Source: Aquamicrobium lusatiense
GTDB taxonomy: Bacteria > Pseudomonadota > Alphaproteobacteria > Rhizobiales > Rhizobiaceae
Length of the DNA stretch: 64,000 nt
Assembly: GCF_014201615.1 (NCBI RefSeq)
Contig: NZ_JACHEU010000001.1
Coordinates: 2,850,412 to 2,914,411, forward strand
Direction of reading: 5' to 3'
The position numbers and the translations under genes were made by a program. How positions within the stretch are numbered: the stretch's first letter is position 1; each line of letters begins with the position of its first letter. Under the pieces are notes generated by a model that was not told the DNA's origin, made no database searches, and worked only from the letters and a program-made list of their open reading frames with translations. Below, in pieces: positions 5,249-57,857 of the stretch.

Positions 5249-5737
5249 TTATTGCGGCTTGCCCTTCGCCCACTCCACCTGCTGGCCATAGAGGGGAATG
5301 GTGGTGATCGCCATCTTGGCCGAGCCGTCCTGAACCTGCTGCGAGTGGGCCAGATAGATCAGCGTGTCATTGGCCTTGTCGTAGATGCGCTTCACCACCT
5401 GCTTCTTCCAGATCAGGCTGATCGACTGGCGAAACACCTCTTCGCCGCCCTTGCCAAGGTCGATGTCGCCGATCTTGATCGGTCCGGTCTGCTCGCAGGA
5501 CAGCGCCGCGTTCGACGGATCCTCGAACCAGTTGCCTTTCTGAAGGCGATCGATGACGCCACGGTCGAAATAGGCCAGATGGCAGGTCACGCCCTCCACC
5601 TTGGGATCGGTCACGGCTTCGATCTTGATGTCGTTTCCGAACCAGTCGACGCCGATCTTGCCGACCTGCTCGGCATGAGCGGAACCGGCACTTGCGGCGA
5701 TGGCGGCGGCTGTCAGGCAGGCTATGGTCTTGCGCAC
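5249..5737 (-). CDS. creA: CreA family periplasmic protein
   Basis: 162 residues. The GTG at 5737 is chosen because GGAGACAGAA stands directly in front of it and the signal peptide (RKTIACLTAAAIAASAGSAHA) begins there; the frame is open further upstream without a start signal. The mature protein carries the CreA hallmarks: GKIGVDWFGNDIKIEA, DPKVEGVTCHLAYFDRG and a C-terminal IPLYG. CreA is a conserved periplasmic protein of unknown biochemical role, first named from the E. coli cre locus. The next gene downstream on the same strand is the acetyltransferase. Confidence 0.88.
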   Translation of the reverse strand: MRKTIACLTAAAIAASAGSAHAEQVGKIGVDWFGNDIKIEAVTDPKVEGVTCHLAYFDRGVIDRLQKGNWFEDPSNAALSCEQTGPIKIGDIDLGKGGEEVFRQSISLIWKKQVVKRIYDKANDTLIYLAHSQQVQDGSAKMAITTIPLYGQQVEWAKGKPQ

Positions 5738-36520: not shown

Positions 36521-36922
36521 AATGCCAGCCGGCCTGTAAGCCGGGTTTTGTATGGCCTCCGCGCCTTGCGGCACGGAAACGTGGCGGCCATTCATCTTGG
36601 ACGCCTGTTGCCAGACGCCTCACGCAACCTACCCGGACGGTGGGCCGGAAACAGCCCCCGGAGTTTCCCCCGCACCGCCCCTATTCGGTTTTGCTCCCGG
36701 TGGGGTTTACCGTGCCGCTTCCGTTGCCGGTCGCGCGGTGGGCTCTTACCCCACCCTTTCACCCTTACCGCGCACGAGGCGCGGCGGTTTGCTTTCTGTG
36801 GCACTTTCCCTGGGGTCGCCCCCGCCGGCTGTTAGCCGGCACCGTGTTTCCATGGAGCCCGGACTTTCCTCACCCGCAGCCTTTCGGCTCCTGCTGGTGC
36901 GGCCGCCCGGCCGGCTGGCAGT
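36521..36922 (-). ncRNA. rnpB: RNase P RNA
   Basis: On the minus strand the order is P1 5' strand (TGCCAGCCGG, 36920-36911), the conserved GAGGAAAGTCCGGGC block, CGGTGCCGGCTAACAGCC, GGGAAAGTGCCACAGAAA, GGTAAGGGTGAAAGGGTG, GGTAAACCCCACC and CAAAACCCGGCTTACAGGCC, ending in the P1 3' strand (GGCCGGCTGGCA, 36534-36523). These are universally conserved RNase P RNA elements in correct order, about 400 bases, normal for alphaproteobacteria. The 3' end is followed by a T run. It is the catalytic RNA that trims tRNA 5' ends. Plus-strand open frames across this region are spurious. Confidence 0.95.
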
Positions 36923-53250: not shown

Positions 53251-54426
53251 ATGGCCCCTCCACCACTCCAAGGCATCCGCGTCATCGAACTGGCCCGCAT
53301 TCTGGCCGGCCCATGGGCAGGGCAGGTGCTGGCCGATCTTGGCGCGGACGTCATCAAGGTGGAGAGCCCGCAGGGCGACGATACCCGCAAATGGGGGCCG
53401 CCCTTCGTCGAGGGCAAGGACGGCGAGAACCTGTCCGCCGCCTATTACCACTCCTGCAATCGCGGCAAGCGCTCCATCGCCCTCGATTTCTCCACGCCGG
53501 AAGGTGCTGAGACCGTGCGCCGGCTGGTGGCAGATGCCGACATTCTCATCGAGAATTTCAAGCTTGGCGGCCTGAAGAAATACGGCCTCGACTATGAGAG
53601 CCTGAAGGCGGTCAATCCGAAGCTCATCTACTGCTCGATCACCGGCTTCGGGCAGGATGGCCCCTATGCGCCTCGCGCCGGCTATGACTTCATCGTGCAG
53701 GGCATGTCCGGCCTGATGTCGATCACCGGAGAACCGGACCGCGAACCGCAGAAGGTGGGCGTCGCCGTCACGGACATCTTTACCGGCCTCTATTCGGTCA
53801 TCGCCATGCAGGCCGCACTGCGCCATGCCGAGAAGACCGGCGAAGGCCAGCATATCGACATGGCCCTGCTCGACACGCAGGTATCGGTTCTCGCCAACCA
53901 GAACCTGAACTATCTGGTGTCCGGCACCGCGCCCAACCGCATGGGCAACGCCCATCCCAACATCGCGCCCTATGAGGTGCTGCCGGTCAGCGACGGGCAT
54001 TTCATACTTGCGGTCGGCAATGACAGCCAGTTCGCCAAGTTCTGTGCCGTCATCGGCCGCGCCGAACTGGCTGAAGACCCTCAGTTCGCCACCAATTCGG
54101 CACGCGTCGCCAACCGCCACGCGCTGCGCGAGCACACGGTGCCCGCCCTCGCCGGCTTCGGCCGTGCCGAAATCCTTGCCGCCCTTGAAAAGGCTGGCGT
54201 GCCGGCCAGCCCGATCAACGACATTTCCCAGACATTCGCCGACCCGCAGGTGGTGGCGCGCGGTATGCGGCTCGATCTGGACGACGGCCATGGCAACACC
54301 CTGCCATCGGTGCGCGCGCCGATGGTCATGTCGGCCACGCCGCTCGCGTATGAGCGCCCGTCGCCGCGTCTGGGCGAACACACTGAGGAAATACTCGCAG
54401 AGCTGGAGGAGCGTAAGTCGCGATGA
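53251..54426 (+). CDS. CaiB/BaiF family CoA transferase
   Basis: 391 residues. GIRVIELARILAGPWAGQVL, the aspartate-containing ADVIKVESPQGDDTR, RGKRSIALDF and the region QHIDMALLDTQVSVLANQ holding the catalytic aspartate are typical of class III CoA transferases. They swap CoA between carboxylic acids. The next gene, a TPP enzyme, starts in its stop codon, so the two work together on an unknown acid or its CoA ester. Confidence 0.92.
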   Translation: MAPPPLQGIRVIELARILAGPWAGQVLADLGADVIKVESPQGDDTRKWGPPFVEGKDGENLSAAYYHSCNRGKRSIALDFSTPEGAETVRRLVADADILIENFKLGGLKKYGLDYESLKAVNPKLIYCSITGFGQDGPYAPRAGYDFIVQGMSGLMSITGEPDREPQKVGVAVTDIFTGLYSVIAMQAALRHAEKTGEGQHIDMALLDTQVSVLANQNLNYLVSGTAPNRMGNAHPNIAPYEVLPVSDGHFILAVGNDSQFAKFCAVIGRAELAEDPQFATNSARVANRHALREHTVPALAGFGRAEILAALEKAGVPASPINDISQTFADPQVVARGMRLDLDDGHGNTLPSVRAPMVMSATPLAYERPSPRLGEHTEEILAELEERKSR

Positions 54427-56072
54427 AAACCGGAGGACAACTGATCGTCGAGGCGCTGGAAGCCAACGGCACCGACCGCATCTTCTGCGTACCGGGCGAA
54501 TCCTATCTCGCCGTGCTCGATGCCCTGCATGATTCCGACATCCGCACCATCGTGTGCCGGCAGGAAGGCGGCGCCGCCATGATGGCCGACTGTCAGGGCC
54601 GCCTCACCGGCCGGCCGGGCGTCTGCTTCGTCACCCGCGGCCCCGGCGCCACCAATGCCTCTGCCGGCGTTCACATCGCCATGCAGGATTCCGTGCCGAT
54701 GATCCTGTTCATTGGCCAGATCGCCGGCCACGCCAAATATCGCGAGGCGTTTCAGGAGGTCGATTATCACGCCTTCTTCGGCGACATCGCCAAATGGGTG
54801 GTCGAGATCGACGATGCCGCCCGCATCCCCGAGCTGGTGACGCGCGCCTTCGCCGTCGCCACTTCCGGCCGCCCCGGCCCCGTCATCGTGTCGCTGCCGG
54901 AAGACATGCTGGTTTCCGAGGTCCAGGCCCCGCAAGCCCTTCCCTTCACGCCGGTCGAGACCCGACCTGGCGATGCGGAGCTGAGCCAGCTCGAAAAGCT
55001 GCTCGGCGAGGCGAAGCGCCCGTTCGTCATCCTCGGCGGCACCCGCTGGAGCGAAGACGCGGTTGCCCATATCCGGCGGATCGCGGAAGACTGGACCCTT
55101 CCGGTCGGCGTCTCCTTCCGCCGCCAGATGCTGTTCGATCATTGCCATGAAAACTACGCCGGCGATGTCGGCATCGGCCTTAATCCGAAGCTGGCGACAG
55201 CGATCAGGGAAGCTGACCTCATCCTGCTGGTCGGTGGCCGCTTCGGCGAGATGCCTTCGTCCGACTACACGCTGATGAAGAGCCCCTATCCGGACCAGAA
55301 GCTGGTCCATGTCCACGTCGATGCCAATGAGCTCGGCCGCGTCTACCGGCCGACCCTTGCCATCAACGCCTCGCCCGCAGCCTTCGTCGAGGCCTTCGCC
55401 TCCCGCAAACCGAAGACCGCACCGGTCTGGGCGAGCGAGACGAAGCAGCGCCATGCCGATTATCTGGCATGGTCCACCCCGCCGAAGACCGGCCCCGGCG
55501 CGGTGCAGATGGGTCCGATCATGGATTATCTGGAGGGCGTCCTGCCTCAGGATGCGATCATCTGCAACGGCGCCGGCAACTTTGCCACCTGGATGCACCG
55601 CTTCCACCGGTTCCGCCGCTTCAACACGCAGGCGGCCCCGACTTCCGGCTCCATGGGCTACGGCGTGCCGGCGGGCGTCGGCGCGAAAAGCGTGTTTCCG
55701 GATCGCGAAGTGATCGTCTGGGCCGGCGACGGGGATTTCCTGATGCACGGTCAGGAGTTCGCGACCGCCGTTCAGTATGATCTGCCGGTGATCGTCGTCA
55801 TCCTCAACAACGGCATCTACGGCACCATCCGCATGCATCAGGAACGGGAATATCCCGGCCGCGTTTCCGGCACCAGCCTGAAGAACCCGGACTTCGCCGC
55901 CTATGCGCGCGCCTTCGGCGGCCATGGCGAAACGGTGGAAAACACCGACGCCTTCGCCCCCGCCTTCGAGCGGGCACGCACCAGCGGCAAGCCGGCGATC
56001 ATCGAGATCAGGCTTGATCCCGAAGCGATCACGCCCGCGCGCACGCTGAGCGACATCCGCGAAAAGCGGTAG
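54423..56072 (+). CDS. Thiamine-diphosphate enzyme of the acetolactate synthase type
   Basis: 549 residues. The catalytic glutamate lies in CRQEGGAAMMAD (about residue 50), GPGATNASAGVHIA and QIAGHAKYREAFQEVDYHAF match the N-terminal domain, and the TPP-binding motif is GDGDFLMHGQEFATAVQYDL, ending in NN of VVILNNGIYG. It lacks an FAD-type signature that would make acetolactate synthase certain. Translationally coupled to the CoA transferase, it may decarboxylate or carboligate a 2-oxo acid in a small catabolic route. Substrate unknown. Confidence 0.9.
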   Translation: MKTGGQLIVEALEANGTDRIFCVPGESYLAVLDALHDSDIRTIVCRQEGGAAMMADCQGRLTGRPGVCFVTRGPGATNASAGVHIAMQDSVPMILFIGQIAGHAKYREAFQEVDYHAFFGDIAKWVVEIDDAARIPELVTRAFAVATSGRPGPVIVSLPEDMLVSEVQAPQALPFTPVETRPGDAELSQLEKLLGEAKRPFVILGGTRWSEDAVAHIRRIAEDWTLPVGVSFRRQMLFDHCHENYAGDVGIGLNPKLATAIREADLILLVGGRFGEMPSSDYTLMKSPYPDQKLVHVHVDANELGRVYRPTLAINASPAAFVEAFASRKPKTAPVWASETKQRHADYLAWSTPPKTGPGAVQMGPIMDYLEGVLPQDAIICNGAGNFATWMHRFHRFRRFNTQAAPTSGSMGYGVPAGVGAKSVFPDREVIVWAGDGDFLMHGQEFATAVQYDLPVIVVILNNGIYGTIRMHQEREYPGRVSGTSLKNPDFAAYARAFGGHGETVENTDAFAPAFERARTSGKPAIIEIRLDPEAITPARTLSDIREKR

Positions 56073-56139: not shown

Positions 56140-56441
56140 GTCGTTCCTTCACAGGAGCGTGTATCGAAACTACATCTGGCAGCAGCTCCAGCGCTGGCCG
56201 TCGAAGTCGCTACCTTCGCTGGAGCGTGGGTTGAAACTTTTGCCTGGCAATAGGTGAAGGAAAATGCGGACGCTTTGGTTCCTGAGCCGAAGCGTGGATC
56301 GCGACCCCCTTGTCGCTCTCGCGTCGGGTGGGATGATGGCGTGTCGCTCCCTTCGCGGAAGCGTGGATCGAAACGGGCTGACGTCCGCGCGGCCATCACT
56401 GTCGGCGCCCGTCGCTCCCCTGCGGGAGCGTGGATCGAAAC
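56140..56441 (+). CRISPR. Decayed, isolated CRISPR array, type I-C-like, five repeats
   Basis: Five 31-32-base repeats lie at 56140-56170, 56206-56237, 56274-56305, 56343-56374 and 56411-56441. Their 3' ends are 67, 68, 69 and 67 bases apart, with unrelated spacers of 35, 36, 37 and 36 bases. The best copies read GTCGCTCCC at the left, an inverted GGGAGCG or GGAAGCG in the middle and GTGGATCGAAAC at the right, which is the type I-C repeat architecture. The last repeat has a perfect CGCTCCC/GGGAGCG hairpin. Repeats 1-3 are clearly mutated and repeat 3 is the worst. No cas genes are within the window on either side. Confidence 0.82.
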
Positions 56442-56573
56442 CAGTTTTTCCGCTTCTGCATCACCGGGGAAAACAAACTGCCGCGCCCGCTTTCACCGGC
56501 GCGGCGGTTGATGCCTTTGCAAGAAACGCTGAGGCCGCAAAGGCTCTCCGAAACTGTCGAGCCTTTGCGGCAG

Positions 56574-57857
56574 TCAGGCCGCGGCCAGCGCCTGCTCCAG
56601 ATCGGCAACCAGATCATCGGGATGCTCGACGCCGATCGACAGGCGGATGGTGGTTTCGAGCACGCCGATGCGCTGGCGCACCTCCAGCGGCACGCCTGAA
56701 TGGGTCATGGCGGCCGGATGGCTGGCCAGCGATTCCGTGCCGCCGAGACTGACCGCCAGCTTGAACAACTGCAACGCGTTGAGGAACGCAAAAGCGGCCT
56801 TCTCGCCGCCGCGAATGTCGAAGGAGAAGGTCGAGCCCGCACCCGTGCACTGGGCCTGAAACACCTTGGCTTCCGGGCTGCCGGCGTCAAGGAATGGCAG
56901 GTAATGAACCTTTTCCACCTTGTCGTGGTCGCGCAGGAATTGCGCCACGACCTTCGCATTGGCGTCGGCTTTTTCCATGCGCAGCGCCAGCGTTTCCAGC
57001 GAGCGGCCGAGCATCCAGCAGGAATGCGCGTCGAGCTGGGTGCCGATGGCCCCGCGCAGCGCCTTGATCGGCTTGATGACGTCCTTCGGCCCCATCGCGG
57101 CCCCGGCGATGAGATCGGAATGACCACCCACATATTTCGTCAGCGAATAGAGCGACACGTCCGCGCCAAGTTCCACCGGGCGCTGGAAGACCGGCCCGAG
57201 CATCGTGTTGTCGCACATCACCACCGGGCGGTGGCCCTGCGAACTGCCAAGCTCATCCGCCACCTGCCGCATCAGCGCGAGATCGATGACGCTGTTGATG
57301 GGATTGGACGGCGTTTCCACCAGAATGATCGACACCCGCCCCTTTGCAGCGGCGTCCTTCGCCGCCTTGCGAACCGCCTCGCCATCGACGCCATTGGAGA
57401 AGCCGACGGCCTGGATGCCAAGCCCGGCCAGCGTGCGCGCCAGCAGCGTCTCCGTGCCGCCATAGAGCGGCTGCGAGTGCAGGATGACGTCACCCGGCTT
57501 CGCGTAGGCGAGGATCGCCGTCGAGATGGCGGACATGCCGGACGAGAACAGCACGCAGCTGTCGGTGTTTTCATAAACCGCCAGCCGGTCCTCGACGATC
57601 TCGCTGTTGGGATGGTTGAAGCGCGAATAGACCAGTCCCGCGCTGGTGCCCTGCGGCGGTTCCTTGCGGCCGGAAGTGTAGTCGAAGAAATCGCGCCCCT
57701 CCTCGGCCGAATGGAACACGAAGGTCGAGGTCAGGAAAACCGGCGGCTTGACCGCGCCTTCCGAAAGCAACGGGTCGAACCCGTAGCTCAGCATCATCGT
57801 CTCGGGATGCAGCTTGTGATTGCCGATATGGGTTCTGGAGGGTTTTGGCGCGGTCAT
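56574..57857 (-). CDS. PLP-dependent cystathionine gamma-synthase/methionine gamma-lyase family enzyme
   Basis: 427 residues. [54 protein letters not shown] and the PLP lysine in [17 protein letters not shown] identify the Cys/Met metabolism PLP family. The C-terminal [18 protein letters not shown] is typical of the subgroup annotated as cystathionine gamma-synthase family protein. It acts on sulfur amino acids; synthase or lyase cannot be decided from sequence. A divergent Lrp-type regulator starts 136 bases away and probably controls it. Confidence 0.9.

Follow-up and report, generated by a model that had tools for sequence, protein, structure and literature searches.

Five degenerate CRISPR repeats lying in a gap between two metabolic genes of Aquamicrobium lusatiense raise the question of what such an array is doing there: whether it is the remnant of a lost system, or an orphan array that is served from elsewhere in the genome. 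The window analysed is the whole stretch of 64,000 nucleotides (contig NZ_JACHEU010000001.1, positions 2,850,412 to 2,914,411), and coordinates without further label are those of the window.

Array structure and genomic context

The array extends over 56140-56441 and consists of five degenerate type I-C repeats of 31-32 nt, in which 22 to 31 of 32 positions are the same as in the intact repeat; the reference is the intact repeat from the main array of the same genome, compared over 32 aligned positions. Repeat ends are 67, 68, 69 and 67 nt apart and the inter-repeat spacers measure 35, 36, 37 and 36 nt. The five repeats, 67-69-base period and 35-37-base spacers given by an earlier, sequence-only reading are thus borne out by the repeat alignment and by shuffles. 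The extent that it gave to the array stands for five repeats and four spacers, but spacer 5 (56442-56477) had been overlooked. The features are the following:

54423..56072, + strand: left neighbour, thiamine-pyrophosphate protein (PRK08199)
56140..56170, + strand: repeat R1, 31 nt; agrees with the intact repeat at 27/32 positions; forms the 7-bp hairpin
56171..56205, + strand: spacer 1, 35 nt; target in a PFL_4703-family conjugation gene
56206..56237, + strand: repeat R2; 28/32 positions as in the intact repeat; lowest-energy fold no longer the I-C hairpin
56238..56273, + strand: spacer 2, 36 nt; target at the start of repC
56274..56305, + strand: repeat R3, the most decayed; 22/32 positions as in the intact repeat; 5' boundary uncertain by ~5 nt
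56306..56342, + strand: spacer 3, 37 nt; convincing target not found
56343..56374, + strand: repeat R4; 31/32 positions as in the intact repeat; another fold preferred when folded alone
56375..56410, + strand: spacer 4, 36 nt; convincing target not found
56411..56441, + strand: repeat R5, 31 nt; 30/32 positions as in the intact repeat; full 7-bp hairpin
56442..56477, + strand: spacer 5, ~36 nt; target in trbE; the repeat after it is lost
56482..56600, no strand given: right flank common to A. defluvii and the relative G013; 122-nt aligned block, 79% identical
56574..57857, - strand: right neighbour, cystathionine gamma-synthase family protein (PRK07049)

The element has the regular repeats of ~32 nt and the unrelated spacers of ~34-37 nt of a type I-C array, and its repeat is, to the degree given above, that found beside I-C cas genes. 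The 16-mer GAGCGTGGATCGAAAC occurs five times in the whole window with up to three mismatches, each time inside the array. In 100 shuffles its mean was 0.99 per window, and one shuffle reached 5 over the whole window. Clustering within 300 nt is a stronger test of chance than this whole-window count: among 200 dinucleotide shuffles, the maximum number of matches within 300 nt was 0 in 86, 1 in 112 and 2 in 2. The five units are genuine, well beyond what chance would give.

The stop codon of the left neighbour is separated from R1 by 67 nt. The array had been placed in a gap between unrelated metabolic genes; the site in the gap holds, and the neighbours can now be named as the PRK08199 and PRK07049 proteins. 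Elsewhere in the window, the sole Rfam match at gathering score is an RNase P RNA (class A) at 36521-36918 on the minus strand.

The type I-C system of the same genome

No adjacent cas operon was found: cas1 and cas8c were sought, and each has a single match in the genome, within C1:1.874-1.879 Mb and not in the window, in agreement with the earlier statement that no cas gene is near. For this reason the array is classed as an orphan or remnant rather than as a full I-C locus. With up to two mismatches, the 16-mer is found at 16 places of the genome: nine form one run at C1:1873282-1873827, four belong to the window array and the other three lie at different places. The nine correspond to the main array, which has nine repeats plus a degenerate last repeat, and beside it are encoded Cas1c, Cas4, Cas7/Csd2, Cas8c/Csd1, Cas5c and a Cas3 with HD and helicase domains. 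A genome search for cas3, cas5, cas8c and cas7 and for an intact array with the same repeat, which the sequence-only reading had proposed as a check, therefore finds all of them, ~1 Mb from the window array. The assignment to type I-C made in that reading is also upheld, both by the repeat, which is that of the array beside the Cas8c/Csd1, Cas7/Csd2, Cas5c and Cas1c genes, and by the TTC preceding the targets of three spacers (see below).

The main locus adjoins dapA. The cas2 of its operon (L018 ~3832-3542, minus strand; C1 near 1.8742 Mb) has a frame that is broken after ~23 codons and continues in another frame, while the cas2 of G013 is open within a longer frame. Unless this break is a sequencing error, the strain might be able to defend itself but not to adapt, as spacer acquisition would be hindered. 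The main array gave matches to 8 plasmid records at 66-72% identity; these were taken as matches to other arrays and rejected as targets.

Spacer targets and PAM

The spacers were searched singly against 72,556 plasmid records with an E-value limit of 10. Three of the five (spacers 1, 2 and 5) have protospacers in plasmid or conjugation genes, with best plasmid E-values of 2e-4, 2e-5 and 2e-5; in a control with a 36-nt stretch upstream of R1, E 0.1 was reached among 8 of 19 matches listed.

Spacer 1 matched 31 plasmid records and, among the 20 listed, four are annotated as a PFL_4703-family conjugation protein, most of the others looking like chance matches. Its target gene in pWW0 was confirmed as TIGR03746 (31/35 identical, TTC 5'). 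In pRACO34Ad, one further record of the 20, the match is equally 31/35 with TTC 5', and falls in an unannotated gap at the corresponding place of a like conjugation gene cluster. Spacer 2 matched 70 plasmid records, 19 of the 20 listed being annotated RepC; in pMET2 the site (33/36 identical, TTC 5') spans the repC start codon, and two members of the genus, G003 and G036, carry it with 32/36 identical positions and TTC 5'. For spacer 5, 392 plasmid records were matched, with 15 TrbE or VirB4-type ATPases and five records without annotation among the 20 listed; the match to trbE of pAtCFBP5877b is 32/36 with TTC 5', and the 372 records beyond those 20 include Acinetobacter and Escherichia plasmids. 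In both G003 and G036 the sites of spacers 2 and 5 are 5.7 kb apart. Of these two genomes, a RepC reading frame is present at the spacer-2 site in both (a family search confirms RepC for G036) and a TrbE reading frame at the spacer-5 site was seen in G036 only.

TTC stands directly 5' of all eight protospacers inspected (two for spacer 1, three for spacer 2 and three for spacer 5), two of the eight being sequence-identical. TTC and TTT are given as the type I-C PAM of Neisseria lactamica in PMC10865793. An origin in mobile elements and a TTC ahead of the protospacer, as expected of type I-C, are thus found for 3/5 spacers.

For spacer 3, 14 plasmid records were matched, the lowest E-value being 0.1 (28-nt alignment) and the widest match having E 0.4 and no TTC; in 297 family genomes, its own included, there is one match besides its own, gapped and without TTC. 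Spacer 4 matched 59 plasmid records, with a lowest E-value of 1 among the 20 listed. In the same 297 genomes it has two matches besides its own, neither with TTC, and the better one aligns at 22/25 bases, leaving the first 11 spacer bases outside the alignment. A search of 50,697 phage records returned 8, one at E 0.1 and the rest at 1 or 4.

Self-targeting was considered and rejected: two genes of the genome resemble repC and three resemble trbE, at a protein identity of 40-47%, and the intergenic DNA searched against its own genome at E 1e-4 matches the two arrays and nothing else. One of the two repC-like genes (G000:C3:324160-325392, L171) is broken by a TGA stop.

Present state and possible use of the array

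The leaders of the three main arrays (window genome, G013 and A. defluvii) are alike, with E-values of 7e-9 and 2e-8 against that of the window genome. Neither the 67 nt nor the 250 nt upstream of R1 gave a match better than E 0.22 to these three I-C leaders, and no leader was found upstream of the first repeat; the array is therefore unlikely to gain spacers.

It could nevertheless be a satellite array that is still used, in which read-through from the upstream gene would be processed by the Cas5c of the main locus into working crRNAs against repABC/trb plasmids. The genome does have frames matching Cas3, Cas5c, Cas8c, Cas7, Cas4 and Cas1 together with the same repeat, and the array is on the coding strand of the upstream gene, but promoter prediction called no promoter at the array. 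When each repeat is folded by itself, the 7-bp stem persists in R1 and R5 (in R1, by eye, with one paired change and one G-U), whereas R2, R3 and R4 prefer other folds; with n=5 repeats, selection cannot be inferred. Over its first 8 bases, spacer 2 matches each of its inspected protospacers, but every target examined carries at least three mismatches to its spacer. Moreover, spacer 5 has no 3' repeat, and the missing leader also speaks against present use. On balance, a working satellite is unlikely.

The same site in relatives

The sample comprised one genome per species, as draft assemblies. A total of 80 loci around the upstream gene were scanned on both strands for the 16-mer with up to three mismatches, and a remnant beside that gene was found in one of them, A. 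defluvii (L051); L108 has a single match elsewhere, on the minus strand, which was taken as chance. When the intergenic DNA was compared with 60 relatives, the shared site appeared in G013 only, G003 and G036 being matched at the spacers. The counterparts of the upstream gene in G003, G036 and G006 have no repeat match within 1.5 kb. Near a contig end, G006, another member of the genus, has three I-C-like repeat ends (G006:C34:379-591, L147), whose starts are separated by 65 and 132 nt and which may belong to one more array of related type.

At the shared site, G013 has three repeats and A. defluvii one clear and one ruined repeat (by eye). The right junction falls at the same place, within few nt, in the window genome, A. 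defluvii and G013, and the shared right flank begins within few nt of the end of the relatives' last remnant repeat. On the left side, the DNA common to the window and the relatives stops ~10 nt or less from the stop codon, and the first recognisable repeat ends 36 nt (G013), 31 nt (A. defluvii) and 98 nt (window) past it. The left edges therefore differ by about one unit, as if the window had lost one. A decayed repeat at the left edge of the window was tried and rejected, 695 of 4000 random 33-mers scoring as well.

The flanks and the repeats of the window align with those of the relatives and nothing else does, no inter-repeat sequence being common to the window and the two relatives at E 1e-3. 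The sequence-only reading had named the same units with conserved spacer positions, as in an ordinary tandem element that is not CRISPR, as what would refute it; this is not what the two relatives show, which have the repeats and the outer flanks in common with the window, but not the inter-repeat sequence. Both neighbours are present in 13 of 81 loci. Nine outgroup loci among these were compared, and their gap DNA does not align with that of the window, which leaves no way of defining an empty site.

Between the first and the later remnant repeats of both relatives lies a 91-codon frame (L131 2418-2690 in G013; L051 5876-6148 in A. defluvii) for a small, perhaps secreted protein, present in 2/81 loci with no match in the other 79. 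In A. defluvii, the bases after the first remnant repeat (L051 ~5663-5688) pair with its start, giving, by eye, a perfect 7-bp inverted repeat soon after the stop, perhaps reused as a hairpin. The G013 spacer between the last two remnant repeats matched two plasmid records, at E 0.9 and 3.

The complete I-C loci of these relatives contain 103 repeats (G013, in the stretch examined) and 25 repeats (A. defluvii), and are ~90-94% alike in DNA; no flanking match over 300 bases exists between them in the stretches examined. In both, the I-C locus is placed by the draft assemblies only as far as a contig other than that of the remnant. The DNA next to dapA, 5.7 kb in G013 and the 2.4 kb up to a contig end in A. 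defluvii, contains no match to cas3. Compared with the window genome, their protein identity is 53-54% for Cas3, 62-63% for Cas8c and 76-77% for Cas1, and 93% for the upstream neighbour of the remnant. From these sequences we infer that I-C cassettes move or get replaced while the fossil stays put.

Origin of the array

The element is probably a vertically inherited, in-place fossil of an anti-plasmid type I-C array, without leader or cas genes. A site ancestral to the three species is favoured from the sequence comparison: since the site is shared, an I-C array would have stood between the PRK08199 and PRK07049 genes in the common ancestor of the strain, A. defluvii and G013. Cas1-Cas2 would have captured spacers next to TTC motifs from conjugative plasmids or integrative elements, and three spacers can still be traced, by their matches, to a mating-apparatus gene, repC and trbE. 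The array is now without leader and without last repeat, and the cas genes that once served it have probably been lost; no new spacers would then be added and the array would drift. Today's I-C operon, ~1 Mb off, would be a differently placed copy that could at most process transcripts running on from the upstream gene, and in this sense the Cascade of today might use the array in trans. The two readings first offered, a remnant of a lost system or an orphan served from elsewhere, are consequently both partly true: this is most probably a remnant array, and its genome carries a matching I-C system at another place.

Some observations count against this fossil: i) spacers 3 and 4 have no target, ii) the site has no known cas remnant, iii) decay is uneven, R4 (31/32) and R5 (30/32) being nearly intact, which plain drift does not predict, iv) the left edges are not exactly coincident, v) in both relatives the I-C locus is placed by contig only. 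Two independent arrays at one hotspot are a possible alternative to a single ancestral one.

It is conceivable, although quite improbable, that the fossil outlived the I-C system that wrote its spacers and that a later-arrived copy with a near-identical repeat reads the leaderless, decayed units, an ancient anti-conjugation memory being reused. If a replacement system did read it, the paired change keeping the R1 stem would be a trace of selection.

It is very unlikely that recombination copied or moved part of today's main array to this place, where it would then have decayed. Two repeat types, that of the main array and that of A. defluvii and G013, differ at one position, and by this position R1-R4 are nearer the main-array type; R5, on the other hand, fits the A. 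defluvii/G013 type better, as do the last remnant repeats of G013 and A. defluvii. Furthermore, the window array has no spacer in common with the main, G013 or A. defluvii arrays (10-14-nt matches at most), and remnants occupy this site also in the species whose I-C proteins share only 53-77% identity with those of the window genome.

A cas-regulating pseudo-array (CreR/CreA-like) or another self-directed guide is hardly credible: the repeats are degenerate and a 12-nt seed match of spacer 5 lies behind TTC at window position 1196 (this 12-mer occurs at 4 places in the genome, array included and two of them outside the window, versus 1 for the reversed pattern), but that site is, by eye, inside an apparent coding region and not a promoter, and no spacer match of at least 8 nt behind TTC/TTT, such as a partial match with PAM at a cas promoter, occurs in the 601 bases that surround the start of cas3 or in the leader stretch of the main array.

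CRISPR arrays are usually thought to turn over quickly. Regarding the favoured in-place fossil, remnants at one site in three species, with the I-C cassettes elsewhere, would allow timing of the persistence of repeats, spacers and hairpins after leader loss. Such remnants would also show what the ancestors met, namely conjugative repABC/trb and ICE-type elements.

Comparison with known systems

No description of the window locus was found in the literature searched, whose coverage leaves out most subscription papers. For A. defluvii W13Z1, one CRISPR element with 20 spacers is reported (PMC4551884).

The closest likeness is with the type I-C main array of the same genome, in repeat sequence and hairpin and in spacer length. 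The I-C array of ICEMspSym-AA22 from Mesorhizobium is also similar, its spacers resembling plasmid sequences according to PMC8627217, which describes that system as lacking cas4, cas1 and cas2 and having non-identical repeats. The TTC PAM was examined for the window array only. Unlike intact type I-C arrays, the window array has degenerate repeats and no leader, no adjacent cas genes were found, and its last repeat is lost.

Persistence in a lineage without neighbouring cas genes is reportedly shared with CRISPR2 of Enterococcus faecalis (PMC4580645) and with the I-F arrays of E. coli (PMC12814883). However, most spacers of the E. coli I-F array are stated there to target the absent I-F cas genes, whereas the traceable spacers of the window array target plasmid genes. 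In contrast to those orphan arrays, a system of the same type, I-C, is found elsewhere in the window genome.
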